A stretch of 64,000 nt of DNA from Salipiger sp. H15 (GTDB lineage: Bacteria > Pseudomonadota > Alphaproteobacteria > Rhodobacterales > Rhodobacteraceae), in NCBI RefSeq assembly GCF_040409955.1, contig NZ_CP123384.1, forward strand, positions 248,001 through 312,000, written 5' to 3'. This document shows, in pieces, positions 220 through 9,631 of this stretch (position 1 is the first letter of the stretch; the number at the start of each line of letters is the position of its first letter). The notes beneath the pieces were generated by a model. The model searched no databases and was not told the DNA's origin. It saw only the letters and a list, made by a program, of their open reading frames with translations. Both the position numbers and the translations under genes were made by a program.

Positions 220-223
<4 letters not shown>
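1..223 (-). CDS. phnN: Ribose 1,5-bisphosphate phosphokinase PhnN (N-terminal part, cut by window edge)
   Basis: The gene enters from the left edge and its ATG is at 223. The protein begins MSGRIFALVGPSGVGKDSLL, with a P-loop GPSGVGKDS at residues 10-18 typical of the guanylate-kinase-like PhnN family. PhnN phosphorylates ribose 1,5-bisphosphate to PRPP, the last step that returns the ribose carrier of the C-P lyase pathway to metabolism. The start codon overlaps the phnL stop in an ATGA (220-223), so it is translationally coupled as the last visible gene of the phnG-to-phnN operon. About 74 codons are visible; the C-terminal part lies outside the window. Confidence 0.9.
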
Positions 224-903
<680 letters not shown>

Positions 904-967: not shown

Positions 968-1738
968 TCATACCTGCAGCACGCTCGACACGAGCAGCTG
1001 CGTGTAGCCGTGCTGCGGATCGTCGAGCACCTGGTCGGTGAGCCCGGTCTCGACCACGCGCCCCCCCTTCATCACCATCAGCCGGTCGGCGAGCAGCCGC
1101 ACCACGGCAAGATCGTGCGTCACGATGACCGCCGAGAGCCCCATCTCGCGCACGAGGCCGCGCAGGAGGTCGAGCAGCCGCGCCTGCACCGAGACGTCGA
1201 GCCCCCCGGTCGGCTCGTCCATGAACACCAGCCGCGGCCCGGTGACGAGGTTGCGGGCGATCTGCAGGCGCTGCTGCATGCCGCCCGAGAAGGCGCGCGG
1301 GCGGTCGTCGACCCGGTCCTCGGCGATCTCGACCCGGCCCAGCCAGTCGATCGCCTGCGCCCGGATGCCCGCGTAGTTGCGCGCGCCGACGGCCATCAGC
1401 CGCTCGCCGACGTTGCCGCCGGCCGAGACGCCCATGCGCAGCCCGTCGCGCGGGTTCTGGTGCACGAAGGCCCAGTCGGTGCGCGCCAGCATCCGCCGCT
1501 CGGGCTCGGACATGGTGAGCACGTCCTGCGGGCCATCCGCGCGGGTGTCGAAGACCACGTTGCCCGCGTCGGGCGCCAGCTGGCCCGAGAGGCACGACAG
1601 CAGCGTCGACTTGCCCGAGCCGCTCTCGCCGACGATGCCCATGACCTCGCCCGGCCAGAGATCGAAACTCACCTCGCCGCAGCCGAGCCGCGCGCCGTAG
1701 TGCTTGGTCACGCCCTGAACGGAGAGCAGCGGGGTCAT
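968..1738 (-). CDS. phnK: C-P lyase system ATP-binding protein PhnK
   Basis: The 256-aa ABC-family ATPase carries Walker [10 protein letters not shown] (37-45), signature SGGMQQR (151-157) and Walker B VFMDEP (171-176), with the GGLD following. PhnK is known to bind the PhnGHIJ core complex and is needed for phosphonate breakdown in vivo; it resembles oligopeptide-transporter ATPases but has no permease partner here. Its ATG overlaps the phnJ stop in an ATGA at 1735-1738. The order phnJ-phnK-phnL is the classical one. Confidence 0.95.
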   Translation of the reverse strand: MTPLLSVQGVTKHYGARLGCGEVSFDLWPGEVMGIVGESGSGKSTLLSCLSGQLAPDAGNVVFDTRADGPQDVLTMSEPERRMLARTDWAFVHQNPRDGLRMGVSAGGNVGERLMAVGARNYAGIRAQAIDWLGRVEIAEDRVDDRPRAFSGGMQQRLQIARNLVTGPRLVFMDEPTGGLDVSVQARLLDLLRGLVREMGLSAVIVTHDLAVVRLLADRLMVMKGGRVVETGLTDQVLDDPQHGYTQLLVSSVLQV

Positions 1739-2604
1739 GCGAATTCCTCCTGCGGGGAGAGTGCGCCACGATGCCCTTGGGCCTGTCGCGAGGCGCAGAA
1801 GTCGGTGTCGGAGCAGACGAACATCCGCCCGCCCGCGTCGTCGGTGATCACCTCGTCGAGGTAGCTCGTGCCGCAGCCGCAGAGATCGCAGTCGTGGTCC
1901 GCCTTGCTGGGCTCGAACGGGTGGTCCTCAAAATCGAGGCTGACCACCTTCGTGTGCGGCGGCAGCGCGTAGATGCGCTGCTCGCGGCCCGCGCCGAAGA
2001 GCTGGATCGCCGCGCTCTCGAGCCTCGGGTTGTCGAACTTGGGGATCGGCGAGGGATCCATCACGTAGCGCCCCTCGACCTTCACCGGGTAGGCATAGGC
2101 CGTCGAGATCGCGCCGTTATGGGCGATGTCCTCGTAGAGCTTGACGTGCATCAGCCCGTATTCCTCGAGCGCGTGCATCTTGCGGGTCTCGGTCTCGCGC
2201 GGCTCGAGGAAGCGCAGCGGCTCGGGGATCGGCACCTGGTAGACGAGGATCTGCCCCTCCCTGAGCGGCTGCTCGGGGATGCGGTGGCGGGTCTGGATGA
2301 CGGTCGCCTCCTCGGTGTGCTCGGTCGTCTCCACCTCGGCGGTGCGCTCGAAGAACTTGCGGATCGAGACGGCGTTGGTGGTGTCGTCGGCGCCCTGGTC
2401 GATGACCTTGAGCCGGTCCTCGGGGGTGAGGCAGGCGGCGGTCACCTGCACGCCCCCCGTCCCCCAGCCGTAGGGCATCGGCATCTCGCGGCTGGCGAAG
2501 GGCACCTGGTAGCCCGGCACCGCCAGCGCCTTGAGCAGCGCCCGGCGGATCATCCGCTTGGTCTGCTCGTCGAGATAGGCAAAGTTGTAGGCCTGCGCGG
2601 TCAT
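1735..2604 (-). CDS. phnJ: Alpha-D-ribose 1-methylphosphonate 5-phosphate C-P lyase PhnJ
   Basis: PhnJ is the radical SAM enzyme that cleaves the carbon-phosphorus bond, releasing the alkane and ribose 1,2-cyclic phosphate 5-phosphate. The 289-aa protein has the expected atypical cysteine cluster near the C-terminus: Cys239, Cys242 and Cys264 match the [4Fe-4S] ligands and Cys270 (in CSDTDFC) matches the catalytic cysteine of the E. coli enzyme, each offset by two. The ATG at 2604 was chosen because the protein then begins MTAQAYNFAYLDEQTK, the conserved family start. It overlaps the stop of the upstream unknown gene in an ATGA. Confidence 0.97.
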   Translation of the reverse strand: MTAQAYNFAYLDEQTKRMIRRALLKALAVPGYQVPFASREMPMPYGWGTGGVQVTAACLTPEDRLKVIDQGADDTTNAVSIRKFFERTAEVETTEHTEEATVIQTRHRIPEQPLREGQILVYQVPIPEPLRFLEPRETETRKMHALEEYGLMHVKLYEDIAHNGAISTAYAYPVKVEGRYVMDPSPIPKFDNPRLESAAIQLFGAGREQRIYALPPHTKVVSLDFEDHPFEPSKADHDCDLCGCGTSYLDEVITDDAGGRMFVCSDTDFCASRQAQGHRGALSPQEEFA

Positions 2605-3005
2605 GCGTCCGGCTCCTCGCCGAAGAGATAGATTTCGCCCCAGACGATCTCGTCGCCGAGTTCCGGGTCGCTGAAGGCCTCGAGCAGGCCCTCGTCGACC
2701 GCGCCGTCCTCGTCGAGCGGCAGGTCCGAGGGCGAGGCGATCAGCTTCACGTCCTCGATGCTGCCCGCGACGCCGCCGCATTCGGCGACATGCTCGGCCA
2801 GCTGCACCTCGACCTCGGCCGGGGAATTGGCCGAGAGGCAGATCCACAGCACCGCCAGCGCGGCCTCGTCGTCGATCGCCTCTTCCTCGTCGCCGAAGAA
2901 GGGAGAGACGGTGCCCGGCATCCGGATCACCTCGACCAGCGCGCAGTACCAATCCTGCCCGGCGGGCAGTTCGGGCAGTTTCGCCCCGTGATAACCCTTG
3001 CTCAT
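2601..3005 (-). CDS. Unrecognised acidic 134-aa protein between phnI and phnJ
   Basis: I do not recognise this family. The protein begins MSKGYHGAKLPELPAGQDWY and is strikingly acidic: I count 31 Asp/Glu against 4 Lys/Arg. It has no signal peptide and no membrane segment, so a cytosolic partner protein is likely. It sits exactly where phnI and phnJ are adjacent in E. coli, and it is coupled at both ends by ATGA overlaps (3002-3005 with phnI, 2601-2604 with phnJ). The frame has the GC-rich third-position pattern of its neighbours, so it looks like a true, long-resident operon member. A regulatory or assembly role in the PhnGHIJ complex is inference only. Confidence 0.85.
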   Translation of the reverse strand: MSKGYHGAKLPELPAGQDWYCALVEVIRMPGTVSPFFGDEEEAIDDEAALAVLWICLSANSPAEVEVQLAEHVAECGGVAGSIEDVKLIASPSDLPLDEDGAVDEGLLEAFSDPELGDEIVWGEIYLFGEEPDA

Positions 3006-4093
3006 TCCGCAGCCTCCCTCAGCTGTGTGGTGCCCATCGCCTCTGCCCGCATCCTGCGGACCAGTTCCAGCTCGGACTGGAAGTCGACATAGTGCGGCAG
3101 CTTGATGTGTTCGAGAAAGCCCGTGCCCTGAATGTTGTCGGAATGGGCAAGAACGAACTCCTCGTCCTGCGCCGGGGCGCCGACGTTCTCCTCGCCCAGC
3201 TCCTCCCAGCGCAGCGCCCGATCGACCAGCGCCATCGAGATCGCCTTGCGCTCGGTCTGGCCAAAGACCAGCCCGTAGCCGCGGGTGAACTGCGCGGGCT
3301 CGGTCTTCGAGCCGGCGAACTGGTTGACGGTCTCGCATTCGGTGAGCGTGAGCTCGCCGATGCAGACGGAAAAGCCCAGTTCCGGCACCTCCATCTCGAC
3401 CTCGACCGCGCCGATGCGCAGCTCGCCGACGAAGGGGTGGTTGCGGCCGTAGCCGCGCTGGGTTGAATAGGCCATGCCGAGCACGAAGCCCTCGTCGCCG
3501 CGGGTCAGCGCCTGCAGGCGCAGCGGGCGGCCGGCGGGGTATTCCATCGGCTCGCGGGTCATGTCGGGGGGCGTTCCGTCCGAGCGCGGCTCGTCCTGGA
3601 TGAGCCCGTCGCGGTTGAGGAACTCGGTCACCCGCGGCGTCGGCTCGCGGCGCGGCGCGGCCTCGCGCGCCCGCGGCGCCTCGCCCTCGGCCTCCAGCGC
3701 GAAGTCGAGCAGCCGGTGCGTGTAGTCGAAGGTCGGCCCCAGCACCTGCCCGCCCGGCACGTCCTTGAAGGTCGCGCTGATGCGCCGGTCGCAGCGCATG
3801 GCGCCGGTGTCGACCGGGGCGGAATGCCCGAGCCGCGGCAGGGTCGTGCGGTAGGCGCGGATCAGGAAGATCGCCTCGATGAGATCGCCGCGCGCCTGCT
3901 TGATCGCGAGCGCCGCGAGGTCGGGATCGTAGAGCGAGCCCTCGGCCATCACCCGGTTCACGGCGAGCGCCATCTGCTCGCGGATCTGCGGCACGGTCAG
4001 CTCGGGCACGGCGGTGTCGCCCCGCCGCTCCTCGGCCAGCCATTCATGCGCCGCGTCGATCGCGCGCTCGCCGCCTTTCACAGCCACATACAT
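3002..4093 (-). CDS. phnI: C-P lyase core subunit PhnI (nucleosidase / triphosphate synthase)
   Basis: The 363-aa product begins MYVAVKGGERAIDAAHEWLA and carries typical PhnI stretches such as YDPDLAALAIKQARGDLIEA and FTRGYGLVFGQTERKAISMA. PhnI forms the catalytic core that displaces adenine from ATP with the phosphonate, making ribose 1-methylphosphonate 5-triphosphate, with PhnG, PhnH and PhnL. The start at 4093 shares one base with the phnH stop (TGATG). An in-frame upstream ATG at 4159 lies inside phnH and was rejected. Length agrees with the E. coli protein (about 354 aa). Confidence 0.96.
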   Translation of the reverse strand: MYVAVKGGERAIDAAHEWLAEERRGDTAVPELTVPQIREQMALAVNRVMAEGSLYDPDLAALAIKQARGDLIEAIFLIRAYRTTLPRLGHSAPVDTGAMRCDRRISATFKDVPGGQVLGPTFDYTHRLLDFALEAEGEAPRAREAAPRREPTPRVTEFLNRDGLIQDEPRSDGTPPDMTREPMEYPAGRPLRLQALTRGDEGFVLGMAYSTQRGYGRNHPFVGELRIGAVEVEMEVPELGFSVCIGELTLTECETVNQFAGSKTEPAQFTRGYGLVFGQTERKAISMALVDRALRWEELGEENVGAPAQDEEFVLAHSDNIQGTGFLEHIKLPHYVDFQSELELVRRMRAEAMGTTQLREAAE

Positions 4094-4677
4094 CAGAGCG
4101 CCTCCACTTTCGTCGTGCGCGGCAGCGCCGCAAGCCTGTCTTCGCAGGTGAGGTAGCAATCCCAGCCCAGCGGGAAGAGCAGCGCATTGCGGGCGAAGGC
4201 CTCGACCTCGGGCAGGCTCAGCGCCGCCTCGGTCTCGATGCCCGGTCCGGTGAGCCTCATGCCCGCGTTTTCCAGCGCCTCCACCTCGACGATCAGCGTC
4301 ACCGAGCGATCAGGGTATTCCGCCGTGCCGATGCGGTAGCGGTCGAGCGGCTTCAGCGCCTCCCAGCCGCCGAGGGCGAACATCGCCTCTTGGGCGGGCA
4401 CGATCGGCGCGCCGAGGTGGAAGGCGATCCAGCGCCGCAGCGCCTCGCCGTCGCAGCCGGGCGCGAGGTGGATCGGCGTCTCGCGGTCGCAGAGCGTCAG
4501 CAGCAGAACCGCCGCCGCCGTGGAGATCCCCGGCGCCTCGGCACCCTCGACCGTCTCGATCCGGCCCGGCCGCGCCATCGCCTCGAGCGCCGCGCGGAAG
4601 GCCCGCGCCGCCTGCACCGGGGCGTCGGCAAAGCCGCCCGTCAGCGCGTCGCCGTTCAGAAGATCCGCCATCGTCAC
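4093..4677 (-). CDS. phnH: C-P lyase core subunit PhnH
   Basis: The 194-aa product, starting MTMADLLNGDALTGGFADAP, has the family length and the pattern FRAALEAMARPGRIETVEG seen near the PhnH N-terminus. PhnH is a structural subunit of the PhnGHIJ complex and is required for the first, ribosyl-transfer step of alkylphosphonate breakdown. Its ATG overlaps the phnG stop in an ATGA (4674-4677), so synthesis of the G and H subunits is coupled. Confidence 0.95.
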   Translation of the reverse strand: MTMADLLNGDALTGGFADAPVQAARAFRAALEAMARPGRIETVEGAEAPGISTAAAVLLLTLCDRETPIHLAPGCDGEALRRWIAFHLGAPIVPAQEAMFALGGWEALKPLDRYRIGTAEYPDRSVTLIVEVEALENAGMRLTGPGIETEAALSLPEVEAFARNALLFPLGWDCYLTCEDRLAALPRTTKVEAL

Positions 4678-5123
4678 TCCCCCCGCACCATGGTGAAGAA
4701 GTCCACCTTCGTCGCCGCGGCCCGTGCCGCCCGCGCGTCGCGCCGCGCCGCCTCTTCCGAAGCCAGCGGCGCCAGCACGGCGGCCTGCATCTCGCCCGCC
4801 CGCGGCCCCTGCATCAGCGCATCCACCAGCGCGGCGCGCTCGGCATGGGCGCGGCTGCGCCCCTGCACATGGGCATGGCCGACTTCGCCGGACTCCAGCC
4901 GCAGCGCGCAGCGGGTGACGGTCATCTCGCCGAGGTTGAAGGGCGCGCCGGTGCCGCCCATGCGGCCGCGCACCATGACGCCGCCGGTCTCGGGCACGCG
5001 CAGCCAGTCGAAGCCGGGCAGAGCCGCCCCCTCCAGCAGTGCCGCCAGCCGATCCGCCGGGGCCCGCGCCAGCAGGCCCATCCAGCCCTGCCGCGCGGCG
5101 ATTTCCTGTTCAGGAGTTTCCAT
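4674..5123 (-). CDS. phnG: C-P lyase core subunit PhnG
   Basis: This is the first gene of the minus-strand C-P lyase operon. The 149-aa product begins METPEQEIAARQGWMGLLAR, and the segment PETGGVMVRGRMGGTGAPFN is characteristic of PhnG. Together with PhnH, PhnI and PhnJ it forms the C-P lyase core complex. A ribosome-binding site AAGGTG precedes the ATG by about six bases. Only 114 bp separate it from divergent phnF, and that gap holds a palindrome placed to repress the operon. Confidence 0.95.
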   Translation of the reverse strand: METPEQEIAARQGWMGLLARAPADRLAALLEGAALPGFDWLRVPETGGVMVRGRMGGTGAPFNLGEMTVTRCALRLESGEVGHAHVQGRSRAHAERAALVDALMQGPRAGEMQAAVLAPLASEEAARRDARAARAAATKVDFFTMVRGE

Positions 5124-5237: not shown

Positions 5238-5993
5238 ATGCCCCGTTCCCCCGTCTGGCACGCCATCGCCACCACGCTCGAAGGCGAGATCTCGCGCGGG
5301 CATTATCGCCCCGGCGACAAGCTGCCGACCGAGGCCGAGCTGGCCACCCGCTTCGGCGTCAACCGCCACACGGTGCGCCACGCGCTCTCGGACCTCGCCG
5401 AGCGCGGCCTCACCCATTCGCGGCGCGGCGCCGGCGTCTTCGTGCGCATGGCGCCGATGGACTACCCGATCGGCGGGCGCACCCGGTTCAGCCAGAACGT
5501 CCGCGCCTCGGGTCGCCTGCCCGACCGCCGCCAGTTGCGCATGGAGACCCGCCCCGCCGACGCGTCCGAGGCCGAGGCGCTGCAGCTGACCCCGGGCGAG
5601 CCGGTGCTGGTGCTCGAGGGCATCTCGCTGGCGGGCGGCGTGCCCATGGCGCATTTCGTCTCGCTCTTCCCGATCACCCGCCTGCCCGGGCTCGACGCCA
5701 CCCTGCGCGAGGTGAACTCGGTCACCGAGGCGCTGCGCCGCCACGGCATCGCCGACTACACCCGCGCGATGACAAGGCTCACCGCCGAGCCCGCCTCGGC
5801 CACCCAGGCACTGCACCTCGGCCTGCGCGAGGGCGAGCCGCTGCTGCGCTCCACCGCGCTCAACCTCGGCCCCGACGGCGCACCGGTGGAACAGGGCCAC
5901 ACCTGGTTCGCCGGGGACCGGGTCGCGCTGACCATCAGCCATGACGACACCTCCGCCGCACCACGTCACGCCGGTGACACAGAGCCGGGGTAG
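5238..5993 (+). CDS. phnF: Phosphonate metabolism transcriptional regulator PhnF (GntR family)
   Basis: The 251-aa protein has an N-terminal winged helix-turn-helix (about residues 5-75, with LPTEAELATRFGVNRHTVRH) and a C-terminal UTRA effector-binding domain, the HutC-subfamily layout. PhnF represses phn genes when phosphonate or its derivative is absent. It faces away from phnG and is followed within 41 bp by phnM, so regulator and PhnM are probably co-transcribed. The likely operator lies in the upstream gap. Confidence 0.93.
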   Translation: MPRSPVWHAIATTLEGEISRGHYRPGDKLPTEAELATRFGVNRHTVRHALSDLAERGLTHSRRGAGVFVRMAPMDYPIGGRTRFSQNVRASGRLPDRRQLRMETRPADASEAEALQLTPGEPVLVLEGISLAGGVPMAHFVSLFPITRLPGLDATLREVNSVTEALRRHGIADYTRAMTRLTAEPASATQALHLGLREGEPLLRSTALNLGPDGAPVEQGHTWFAGDRVALTISHDDTSAAPRHAGDTEPG

Positions 5994-6034
5994 AACCTGC
6001 CGAAACCCCAGAGCAGCCACGGCGGGTGACAAGC

Positions 6035-7216
6035 ATGACTGCCCTACTTCCCCCCCTGCGCCTCACCGGCGCGACCCTTCTTCGCGACGGCGCGCTGCAG
6101 AAGCGCTCGCTGGTGATCGAGGGCGGCGTGATCAGCAAGGGTCCGCACCCCGAGGTCGACCTGTCGGGATACCTGATCCTGCCGGGCATCATCGACCTGC
6201 ACGGCGATGCCTTCGAGCGCCACATCGCGCCGCGCCCCTCCGCGCCCTTCCCGATCCTCGCCGGCCTGCGCTGGACCGACCGCGAGGCCGCCGCCCACGG
6301 CGTCACCACCGCCTGGCTCGCCCAGTGCTGGAGCTGGGAGGGCGGCATGCGCGGCCCGGATTTCGCCGAGCAGGTCATGGCCGCCCTCGCCGCCTACCGC
6401 CCGCGCGCCCAGACCGACCTGCGCCTGCAGATCCGCTGCGAGACCCACATGCCCGAGACCCGCGAGCGCCTGCTCGAGGCGCTGCTGCGCCACGGCGTGG
6501 ATTACGTGGTGTTCAACGACCACCTGCCCGAGGCGCTCGACGTCGCCGCGCGCGATCCGCACCGGCTGGCGCTCTGGGCCGAGCGCGCCGGCGAGACGCC
6601 GCAGGATTTCATCAACCGCCTGCACGCCGCCAAGGCGCGCGGGCGCGACGTGCCGCGCCACCTCTGCGCGCTGGCCGAGAAGTTCGACGGGCTCGACATC
6701 CGCTACGGCAGCCACGACGACCCCGACGGCGAGACCCGCGAGTATTACCGGCTCATCGGCGCCCGCATCGCCGAGTTCCCCACCACGGTCAGCGCCGCCA
6801 AGCTGGCCCGCGCCTTCAACGACCCGGTGCTCATGGGCGCGCCCAACGTCGTGCGCGGCCAGAGCCAGGCCGGCAATGTCTCGGCCCAGCACCTCGTCGC
6901 CGCCGGGCTCTGCGACGCGCTGGTCTCGGACTACCACTACCCCTGCCTCGCCGAGGCCGCCTGGACGCTGGTCGACAAGGGGCTGAAGTCCCTGCCCGAG
7001 GCCTGGGCGATGATCTCGACAACACCGGCCGAGATCATGGGCCTCGTCGACCGCGGCGCGCTCGACCATGGCCGGCGCGCGGACTTCGTGGTGGTCGACG
7101 CCGCCAGCCGCGCCATCGAGGCCACGGTCTGCGGCGGCCGGCTCACCTACCTCTCCGGCGAGGCCGGCGCCCGGCTGGTCTCGGCCATGCAGGGCCAGCG
7201 CATGGCGGCCGAGTAG
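6035..7216 (+). CDS. phnM: Alpha-D-ribose 1-methylphosphonate 5-triphosphate diphosphatase PhnM
   Basis: PhnM removes pyrophosphate from the 5-triphosphate intermediate, giving the PhnJ substrate. The protein (393 aa from this ATG) is an amidohydrolase-superfamily member with the metal-binding DLHGD motif (residues 54-58) and later conserved pieces ETHMPETRERL, VFNDHLPEA and MGAPNVVRG. The ATG at 6035 is preceded by GGGTGA; a GTG at 6026 in the same frame would add three residues. It follows phnF on the same strand and is separated from the rest of the C-P lyase genes, which lie on the other strand. Confidence 0.95.
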   Translation: MTALLPPLRLTGATLLRDGALQKRSLVIEGGVISKGPHPEVDLSGYLILPGIIDLHGDAFERHIAPRPSAPFPILAGLRWTDREAAAHGVTTAWLAQCWSWEGGMRGPDFAEQVMAALAAYRPRAQTDLRLQIRCETHMPETRERLLEALLRHGVDYVVFNDHLPEALDVAARDPHRLALWAERAGETPQDFINRLHAAKARGRDVPRHLCALAEKFDGLDIRYGSHDDPDGETREYYRLIGARIAEFPTTVSAAKLARAFNDPVLMGAPNVVRGQSQAGNVSAQHLVAAGLCDALVSDYHYPCLAEAAWTLVDKGLKSLPEAWAMISTTPAEIMGLVDRGALDHGRRADFVVVDAASRAIEATVCGGRLTYLSGEAGARLVSAMQGQRMAAE

Positions 7217-7351
7217 CGGGCCGCGGCGCCCGGCGGGATCTTTCGCACCGGCAGCACGGCGCGCCGCGGTTAGGCGCTTGTTCAGTCTTTCGTGGTTGAA
7301 CAGGCGGCATCGCCCGGCGCAGCGCCGCGCCAGCCGCCACAGGAACACGCC

Positions 7352-9631
7352 ATGCCCCGCCTGCGCAGCCTTTCGGTCAGCCTCAAGCTGCCCGCGCTGA
7401 TCATCGTCATCGCGCTCGGCTGCCTCGGCGTGGCCGGGGCGGTCGCCTACAAGGCCTCGCTGGCCCAGCTGATGCAGGAAGTGTCGCTGCGCCTCTCGAT
7501 GCTCGACGAAACCCGCGCCGCGCTGATCGAGGATTGGGGCGCGCGGATGCGCACCGCCCTGTCCGAAGAGGCGGCCGAGCCCTCGATGATCGAGGCCGTG
7601 AGCCGCCTGCTGGTCGGCTACCGCGGGCTCGGCAGCGAGGCCAACGCGCATCTGCGCAGCGGCTACGTGGACGGCAACCCGAATCCCGCCGACCAGCGCG
7701 CCGAGCTGCTGGCGGCCCCCGACGGCACCGCCTACGCGCGCTTCCACGCGCTCTACCACCCCGCGATGCGCGCCCGGGTGAAGGCGATCGGGCTGCGCGA
7801 CCTGCTCATCGTCTCGGCCGCGGGCGACGTCCTCTACTCGGTCCGCAAGGAGGGCAATTTCGCCACCAATGTCGCCGCGGCCCCGGGCAGCCTCGGCACG
7901 GCCGTCCGCGCCGCGCTCGCAGAGGGGGCGGAGTTCGGATTCGGCGATTTCGCCACCGACCCGGAGGCCGGGGGCGCGGCCGCCGCCTATCTCGCCGCGC
8001 CGCTGCACGACGCCTCGGGCGCGGTCGTGGCCGCGCTGGTCTTCGAGCCGGACGGGCGCGAGATCGCGCGGATCGCCGAGATGCGCTCGGGCCGCACCGA
8101 CTCGACGCGGCTCGCGGTGATCGCCCCGGACCTCACGCTGCGCAGCGCCCGCGGCCTCGACGGAACGCCGGAGGCACTCGGCACGCCCCTCCCCCTCGGC
8201 TCCGCCCTGGACGCGGTGCTGGCCGGCGCGGCGGATGGCGAAAGCGGCATGGCCCGGATCACGCTGCCCTCGGGCACCGAGGTCGCCGCCGCCTTCCAGC
8301 CGGTCAGTTTCGCCGGGCAGCGCTGGCTGCTGCTCGCCGCCGAACCCTCCGAGGTCATCGCCGCCGGCCCCCGCGCGCTGCTCGCGCAGCTCGCCCGCGC
8401 CACCGCCGCGGCTCTGGTCGTCGCGCTCTTGCTGGCCTGGCTTGCCGCCCGCAACCTTGCGCAGCCGCTGCGGCGGATCGCGGCGGCGGTGGGCAAGGTC
8501 GCCGCCGGCGACTACGAGAGCGAGATCCCCGCCCAGGCGCGCGGTGACGAGATCGGCCGGATCTCCCGCGCGCTCGACGCGCTGCGCGGCGACCTGCGGC
8601 GGAACCGCGACGCGCTCGACGCCGGCGCAAGCGCCCGCGCCGCGATGCTGGCGGCGCAGACCGACGTGGTCGAGGCGCTGCAATCGGCGCTCGCCCGGCT
8701 CGCCGGGGGCGATCTCGGCAGCGTCATTTCGCGCCGTTTCCCCGACGAGTACGAGCAGCTGCGCAGCGACTTCAACCGCGCCACCGACCGGCTGCACCAG
8801 GCGATGATCGACGTGTCGCAAAGCGCCGAGGCGATCGGCCAGGACGTCGATCACATTGCCCAGGCCTCCGAGGAGCTTGGCCAGCGCACCGAGCGCCAGG
8901 CCGCCACGGTCGAGCAGACCGCCGCCGCGCTCGACGAACTGACCGCCTCGGTCTCGGAGGCAGCGAAGAACGCCGCCGAGGTTGACACGCTGGTCGGAAA
9001 GGCGCGCGAAGACGCGAGGACCAGCGGCGAGGTCGTCCGCGAGACGATCGAGGCGATCGGCGTCATCGAAGCCTCGTTCCAGCAGATCTCCGGCAATATC
9101 AAGGTGATCGACGACATCGCCTTCCAGACGAATTTGCTCGCGCTCAACGCCGGGGTCGAGGCGGCGCGGGCCGGCGAGGCCGGGCTCGGCTTCGCCGTCG
9201 TCGCCTCCGAGGTGCGGCTCCTCGCGCAGCGCTGCTCCGAGGCCGCGCGGGAGATCAACATCCAGATCACCGATTCGTCGGAGCATGTGCAGAACGGCGT
9301 GCGCCTCGCCGGGCGCACCGGCGGCGCGCTGAAGGAGATCATCGCCGCGATCCGCATCATCGCCGAGCGCGTCACCGCCATCGCCGAGTCCGCGCGCGAA
9401 CAGTCAACCGGCCTGTCGGAGCTCAACAGCGCGGTAAGCGAGCTCGACATGACCACCCAGAAGAACGCCGCCATGTTCGAGGAAACTTCGGCCGCCAGCG
9501 CCGACCTGCGCCGCGCCGCGCTGGGGCTGCGCCAGCATGTCGGTCGGTTCACCCTCGGCAGTGGCGCCGAAAGCTGGGAGGGCGCGGAGGCGGCCGAGCT
9601 GCCGCCCGCCCCCCGATCGGCCCCCGCGTGA
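7352..9631 (+). CDS. Methyl-accepting chemotaxis protein with periplasmic Cache-like sensor
   Basis: The 759-aa receptor has a first membrane segment near residues 12-34, a large periplasmic domain with Cache-type sequence (DLLIVSAAGDVLYSVRKEGN), a second membrane segment around residues 345-370, a HAMP domain, a second HAMP-like segment, and a cytoplasmic signalling domain with the conserved tip DIAFQTNLLALNAGVEAARA. Such proteins control flagellar rotation through CheA/CheW. The ATG at 7352 was preferred over one 60 bp upstream because AGGA lies seven bases before it. It follows phnM by 135 bp inside the phosphonate island, which suggests but does not prove that its ligand is a phosphonate or phosphate ester. 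Confidence 0.92.
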   Translation: MPRLRSLSVSLKLPALIIVIALGCLGVAGAVAYKASLAQLMQEVSLRLSMLDETRAALIEDWGARMRTALSEEAAEPSMIEAVSRLLVGYRGLGSEANAHLRSGYVDGNPNPADQRAELLAAPDGTAYARFHALYHPAMRARVKAIGLRDLLIVSAAGDVLYSVRKEGNFATNVAAAPGSLGTAVRAALAEGAEFGFGDFATDPEAGGAAAAYLAAPLHDASGAVVAALVFEPDGREIARIAEMRSGRTDSTRLAVIAPDLTLRSARGLDGTPEALGTPLPLGSALDAVLAGAADGESGMARITLPSGTEVAAAFQPVSFAGQRWLLLAAEPSEVIAAGPRALLAQLARATAAALVVALLLAWLAARNLAQPLRRIAAAVGKVAAGDYESEIPAQARGDEIGRISRALDALRGDLRRNRDALDAGASARAAMLAAQTDVVEALQSALARLAGGDLGSVISRRFPDEYEQLRSDFNRATDRLHQAMIDVSQSAEAIGQDVDHIAQASEELGQRTERQAATVEQTAAALDELTASVSEAAKNAAEVDTLVGKAREDARTSGEVVRETIEAIGVIEASFQQISGNIKVIDDIAFQTNLLALNAGVEAARAGEAGLGFAVVASEVRLLAQRCSEAAREINIQITDSSEHVQNGVRLAGRTGGALKEIIAAIRIIAERVTAIAESAREQSTGLSELNSAVSELDMTTQKNAAMFEETSAASADLRRAALGLRQHVGRFTLGSGAESWEGAEAAELPPAPRSAPA

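Follow-up and report, generated by a model that had tools for sequence, protein, structure and literature searches.

An acidic protein gene of a single clade at the frequently occupied phnI–phnJ junction of C–P lyase operons

The C–P lyase operon of Salipiger sp. H15 encodes, between phnI and phnJ, an acidic protein (here X) that is a genuine protein under purifying selection and, in our judgment, rather probably an accessory gene specific to its lineage, taken up a single time by a capture slot that follows phnI. The slot and the open-frame rule that its contents mostly follow appear to us the more interesting find. We tentatively propose, at somewhat less than even chances, that the phnI–phnJ junction of alphaproteobacterial C–P lyase operons is a capture slot with a rule for its entrants: each needs a forward frame that stays open and passes ribosomes on from the end of phnI to the start of phnJ, also where the inserted gene lies on the opposite strand. 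Such a stretch would have two uses, carrying a gene on one strand and being translated on the other as a bridge that shields phnJ from polarity. X would be a bridge that is a conserved lyase-pathway protein or has become one.

The acidic protein and its operon

The window, a 64,000-nt stretch of contig NZ_CP123384.1, contains X within a phn cluster, the features of which are collected in Table 1. The preliminary description of this DNA had reported, between phnI and phnJ, a 134-aa ORF (31 acidic residues, 4 basic) that overlaps each neighbor by an ATGA; this was confirmed on the sequence, and Pfam identified both neighbors. The acidic residues comprise 12 Asp and 19 Glu and the basic ones 3 Lys and 1 Arg, with 2 His in addition. 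The net charge per residue is −0.20, whereas none of 46 gene-like ORFs in the window falls below −0.07; X is not part of this set, probably since its frame, when read from the earliest start codon, runs over part of phnI. That X is more than a chance ORF follows from its frame, preserved in relatives at 65–88% identity, from dN/dS values of 0.04–0.46 in all 28 pairs among eight genomes, and from codon-position GC contents (0.74/0.40/0.90) that resemble those of phnI and phnJ. An alignment of 11 sequences, although shallow, holds 62 invariant columns. AlphaFold returned a single confident domain (pLDDT 84.5, pTM 0.80) with the order beta-beta-alpha-beta-alpha-beta, and X is accordingly predicted to be a small acidic alpha/beta domain.

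Table 1 Features of the phn region in the window, with the basis of each assignment
Feature	Position	Strand	Basis
phnL (ABC ATPase)	220..903	-	Position and ABC_tran
phnK (ABC ATPase)	968..1738	-	Position and ABC_tran
phnJ	1735..2604	-	Pfam PF06007, 6e-143
ATGA overlap of X stop and phnJ start	2601..2604	-	Sequence
X (acidic orphan protein, 134 aa)	2601..3005	-	ORF list, selection, single clade
GAGGAG, Shine–Dalgarno-like, in X 3′ end (Glu-Glu codons), precedes phnJ	2613..2618	-	Sequence
ATGA overlap of phnI stop and X start	3002..3005	-	Sequence
phnI	3002..4093	-	Pfam PF05861, 2.8e-164
GGGAGG, Shine–Dalgarno-like, in phnI 3′ end, precedes X	3013..3018	-	Sequence and phnI-end signal statistics
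phnH	4093..4677	-	PF05845, TIGR03292
phnG	4674..5123	-	PF06754, TIGR03293
phnF regulator	5238..5993	+	TIGR02325 above cut-off
Second PhnM-type hydrolase	6026..7216	+	NF011987 above cut-off

NCBIfam models scored above cut-off for phnN, phnM, the second PhnM-type gene and phnF of the window's genome, which also has a DUF1045 gene with 2H-type similarity alongside X. The suggestion that X substitutes for a missing function was not supported, as a search for phn genes other than phnO and phnP showed phnF, phnG to phnN, the second PhnM-type gene and the DUF1045 gene all to be present. Likewise, X fills no evident gap, because a relative lacking it (G007) has an equal core phn gene set as judged by eye from its ORF list.

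Searches of Pfam and NCBIfam with X at E ≤ 1 returned no family, the models of PhnF to PhnP in these databases did not match it, and neither these searches nor scans of its members yielded an acetyltransferase match. At E ≤ 10, the 11 X members gave only weak matches to other families, with best E values of 0.15 and 0.24. We attribute to chance a HicB-like antitoxin (PF15970) hit in two of the 11 members (best E 0.15), as well as hits to a viral glycoprotein family, a carbonic anhydrase and phrog_11401 (E 0.1–0.28, each in one or two of the 11). Kinship with DUF4288 (PF14119), suggested by the WY...A-S-EEA pattern of X, found no support in a profile comparison (hhalign probability 0.85% over 11 columns, with shallow alignments of Neff 1.5 and 2.1). 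Sequence searches found no solved relative, and Foldseek with the X model found no match at E ≤ 0.001. Its rows for a ribosomal protein, which we presume to be eL20-like, or for PurS-like beta-beta-alpha-beta folds were not significant and may share a common arrangement alone, and a phage DUF4494 protein stood at rank 28 in a search in which no match was significant.

Distribution and phylogeny of X

Eight of 101 genomes searched carry X, in one copy each and always exactly between phnI and phnJ, a count that leaves aside the genomic place of two protein matches (P0004 and P0005). Homologs lying mostly outside phn loci, the pattern named in the preliminary description as speaking against a phn partner, were not observed. 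In all eight carriers, X overlaps both neighbors and its frame runs exactly from the phnI ATGA to the phnJ ATGA. Within the genus, phnJ was found in all 20 genomes, of which eight encode X, the other seven proteins being 78–88% identical to that of the window, and 12 do not. A search of 5.8 billion proteins yielded five X clusters among 32 candidates, to which a profile search added none (5 of 7997 scored); named carriers are Salipiger and Alloyangia. In 295 genomes of the family (our family code f1; NCBI taxonomy places Salipiger in Roseobacteraceae, Rhodobacterales), mostly one per genus, the X profile scored strongly only in its own genome. The remaining matches were seven weak and partial ones outside the genus (E 6e-4 to 0.08), the best covering 57 positions within a 353-aa frame (L064). 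Plasmid records contained no copy, and no strong match outside the phnI–phnJ junction was obtained from any genome or plasmid record searched.

In a genus tree of PhnI and PhnJ, the eight X genomes form one clade with 95/95 support, and since this clade is unbroken, one gain and zero losses suffice to explain X in the sample. The rest of the 20 genomes comprise a DUF559 clade (n = 3), a clade with an opposite-strand small gene (n = 2) and seven genomes with a gap of <60 nt; one genus member, L039, groups with the outgroup in this tree.

Frequency of inserts at the phnI–phnJ junction

The comparison covered 154 distinct family loci with phnJ, of which 24 came from the genus (including four of a second phn type, L059–L062) and 130 from other genera, the latter drawn from phnJ matches in 147 of the 295 family genomes. 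With an insert defined as a junction gap of at least 90 nt, 87 of the 154 loci have one at phnI–phnJ, while the control junctions gave 0/134 at phnH–phnI and 13/154 at phnJ–phnK. Beyond the genus, the phnI–phnJ junction is occupied in 74 of 130 loci. Among relatives in the genus of X, the gap is only 5 nt in L046, L049, L053 and L057, and in all eight X loci the gene sits where related genomes have nothing or nearly nothing, as expected of slot cargo.

Elsewhere in the class, where PhnJ was found in 48 of 289 genomes, none of the 30 best-scoring loci has a phnI–phnJ gap of at least 90 nt. A phylum sample gave inserts in seven of 27 new loci, six of them in family f160, which contributed 12 of the 27 loci and appears to be Rhizobiaceae-like. 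These six consist of three FosX-like ORFs (one scanned), two opposite-strand small ORFs and one unassigned insert; the seventh (L230), from a different family, shares the reading frame of phnJ. A FastTree phylogeny of 150 family loci, which left out L059–L062, required 78 insert-state changes against a shuffled mean of 88, and with its weak inner support this says little beyond frequent turnover of the junction's content.

Contents of the junction

The 87 inserts comprise 30 HAD hydrolases, 22 candidate opposite-strand membrane proteins, 14 DUF559 proteins, 13 others and the eight X genes. Membership in the HAD, DUF559 and X classes was assigned by similarity to representatives, for the 30 HAD loci by similarity to six scanned members, and only the names HAD, DUF559, FosX, histidine phosphatase and X denote more than provisional classes. 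A Pfam scan of 46 bridging ORFs detected DUF559 in nine, HAD (PF00702) in three, a glyoxalase-type protein in L133 and a histidine phosphatase in L108. FosX scored above the NCBIfam cut-off at the junction in L133 of the family and L219 of f160, and the corresponding ORFs of L220 and L229 (f160) are FosX-type by eye.

The commonest insert is a HAD-IA hydrolase (for example, L092:2405–3004), possibly an uncharacterized phosphatase of the pathway. DUF559-like inserts occur in L016, L024, L027, L030, L038, L042, L043, L048, L104, L107, L110, L132, L147 and L167, and many of them have repeat-like N-terminal translations by eye, which may be palindromic repeats read as protein. A single test of whether a multi-copy mobile element loads the slot spoke against this idea: in five of five carriers (nine genomes given), the DUF559 insert was the sole DUF559 match of the genome.

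Tiny candidate single-helix membrane proteins are encoded opposite to the phn strand in L050, L054, L118, L131, L168, L033 and L012, and some candidates of this class end in Gly/Asp-rich tails. The class rests on a hydropathy cut-off with 26 rows that can misfire: four rows are loci already assigned to HAD or DUF559 (L009, L027, L129 and L140), and for L027 and L129 the row spans the HAD or DUF559 gene itself. One small candidate membrane-protein family was matched once per genome in 26 of the 198 family genomes searched and adjoins phnJ in two of these 26 places (G043 and G170); it also occurs in genomes without a phnJ match (G022, G026, G029, G032, G038 and G051). Rfam models at the gathering score detected no structured RNA in the small inserts of 20 loci.

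The phnJ–phnK junction constitutes a second, rarer slot, occupied in L086, L113, L095, L158, L024, L139, L072, L104 and L160 by ORFs that by eye resemble histidine phosphatases, glyoxalases, acetyltransferases and alpha/beta hydrolases. In its first residues, the His_Phos_1 ORF of L108 at phnI–phnJ resembles by eye the phnJ–phnK ORFs of L086 and L113.

Open forward frames and ribosome-binding signals

In the 87 insert loci, phnI ends in ATGA (78) or GTGA (9). A forward frame runs exactly from this start to the ATGA at the phnJ start in 63 of the 87, whereas shuffled inserts would remain open in about nine of those 63, and a forward frame ends between −3 and +20 of the phnJ start in 78. An open frame is ordinary for true forward genes, including HAD inserts, 25 of 30 of which have a frame spanning the distance from phnI stop to phnJ start, and less so for the remaining inserts. 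Nevertheless, 21 of the 22 candidate opposite-strand inserts and 10 of the 13 others have one, together 31 of 35 against an expectation of 9.3 from shuffled inserts and 8.0 from reverse-complemented phn sequence of the same loci; the 13 others contain two forward genes (L108 and L133), and their share of the excess is accordingly less than it seems. At phnJ–phnK, nine of 13 inserts pass the open-frame test, including the four smallest (L118, L084, L089 and L111).

A strand test by codon position was applied to nine pairs. For L050/L054, the minus strand is clearly coding, with 15, 15 and 34 changes per codon position, mirrored in the forward frame (35, 16 and 17); the other eight lean toward the minus strand or are ambiguous. 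The nine exceptions to the open frame at phnI–phnJ include four HAD loci in which additional sequence precedes or follows the gene (L009, L019, L098 and L140), a further HAD locus in which the frame ends past the assigned phnJ start (L013), and L011 and L116. In the last two, L010 and L143, the frame continues through the whole length of PhnJ, which Pfam detects in the L010 frame. The insert thus seemingly lies in the phnJ frame in these two loci, and their PhnJ may carry an N-terminal extension.

Ribosome-binding signals were scored as matches of five or six bases to AGGAGG, with loci considered insert-free at gaps of <30 nt. Of the 87 insert loci, 62 have such a signal ahead of the phnI-end ATGA. 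Ahead of phnJ, one is present in 40 of 54 insert-free versus 12 of 87 insert loci (Fisher p 6e-13, a guide only as the loci are related). With the signal at the phnI end and mostly none before phnJ, the insert comes to use what would be the phnJ signal, and phnJ itself seems to depend on hand-over. X departs from this pattern of weak phnJ signals, with a five-base match before phnJ in six of eight loci, where the terminal Glu codons of X spell GAGGAG. The PhnI C-terminus looks conserved, and retention of the phnI-end signal may therefore stem from the PhnI protein without any role of the inserts.

A role in phosphonate use and competing explanations

The sequences show a common arrangement. 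The phnI 3′ end usually has a Shine–Dalgarno-like site and closes with ATGA (or GTGA), which in most insert-free loci is at once the start of phnJ; inserts start in this overlap, most of them with a forward frame that reaches phnJ. X follows this arrangement exactly, and its own 3′ end supplies phnJ with a new GAGGAG. Ribosomes ending phnI may then restart on X and again on phnJ, in which case X would be translated in step with PhnI and PhnJ and, through this restart chain, made in a set ratio with both during phosphonate use. More speculatively, X could aid phosphonate use by affecting substrate range, the handling of intermediates or lyase tuning, and in other genera the junction's FosX, HAD hydrolase and histidine phosphatase may have comparable roles. 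X is probably an accessory of phosphonate use, a role favored because the searches detected it at no other place and every member of its clade has it. Against this count the lack of any significant family or fold match and the 12 of 20 genus genomes that manage with phnJ but no X. We rank this explanation first, an unrelated passenger second and a core partner third; the readings overlap, and their odds do not sum to one.

As a passenger, X would be unrelated to phosphonates and kept by a well-expressed site and by the difficulty of a clean removal that spares phnJ. Other cargo of the junction, such as the DUF559 proteins and the small candidate membrane-protein family, does look phosphonate-unrelated. 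However, no strong X match was seen away from the slot, and the near-empty junctions within the genus indicate that the empty state is viable, so we regard this account as unlikely, if still the best of the alternatives.

The preliminary description had read the exact place of X as pointing to a working partner of the C–P lyase core. X could accordingly be a dedicated PhnGHIJ partner, acting as an assembly factor, as an acidic placeholder at the PhnI–PhnJ active-site interface or as a regulator of PhnK-driven opening, a function compatible with the slot reading. In its favor are the placement in eight of eight carriers, unvarying between the genes of two touching subunits and kept throughout the clade, the overlaps and the purifying selection. 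Moreover, the portion of PMC9947105 available to us places the presumed active site between PhnI and PhnJ, opening on ATP turnover by PhnK. The step from place to partnership is weakened: because the 87 inserts in 154 loci are of unrelated kinds and likewise overlapping, the position and the shared ATGA are what cargo normally shows here and no pointer to a contact with PhnI or PhnJ. In addition, the junction is empty or nearly so in seven of 20 genus genomes, and some insert kinds apparently also occur at phnJ–phnK by eye. A core subunit or assembly factor is therefore possible but unsupported, and we consider a core partner slightly less probable again than the passenger. Finally, although other inserts hold open forward frames while their coding strand seems to be the opposite one, X as a translational bridge alone, in which the frame counts and the protein does not, is highly improbable given its conservation as a protein, its confidently predicted fold and the codon statistics that already disfavored this idea.

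Relation to known phn accessory genes

Several known or candidate accessory genes resemble X in part. The portion of PMC12413358 at hand describes phn operons as variable and names fosX in M. loti. Like X, FosX (NF000222) is a small accessory ORF of a phn operon, and the FosX-type ORFs of L133, L219, L220 and L229 occupy the phnI–phnJ junction with ATGA overlaps; unlike X, which belongs to no known family and is limited to one clade among the genomes searched, FosX is a widespread, known enzyme family. The HAD hydrolase (30/154 family loci) shares the position of X but belongs to a family recognized by Pfam and NCBIfam, occurs in many genera and has a putative role. According to excerpts of Martinez et al. 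(PMC3840354), an RcsF-like 2H phosphoesterase, also an accessory gene of phn operons, was proposed as a PhnP substitute in marine phn clusters; the DUF1045 2H-type gene of the window's genome, which we infer to be of this kind, is present in addition to X. The same excerpts treat a PhnO-type acetyltransferase as an optional phn-operon gene that alters substrate range, from which X differs in lacking an acetyltransferase match.

A literature search, mostly of journals outside subscription and largely at the level of records rather than opened full texts, recognized no description of the phnI–phnJ slot. In the part of PMC9947105 that uses the words ‘between phnI and phnJ’, they concern the protein interface, and the accessible parts of PMC5649143, PMC8774927 and PMC4790336 do not mention a gene between phnI and phnJ.

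C–P lyase releases methane from methylphosphonate, and kin of these bacteria are among the marine carriers, according to sections of PMC3840354 and PMC5649143. A junction in the operon core that repeatedly acquires foreign genes provides a list of candidate accessories, namely the HAD hydrolase, FosX, the histidine phosphatase and X. It also offers a natural experiment in how operons admit new genes while the next subunit stays expressed, and the open-frame rule is directly testable by reporters.

Apart from the junction, an apparent methyl-accepting chemotaxis protein ORF (7292–9631, + strand), recognized by eye, adjoins the second PhnM-type gene in the window. The loci L059–L062 represent a second, distant phnIJ type present in four genus genomes, with 41% / 46–48% identity to that of the window.
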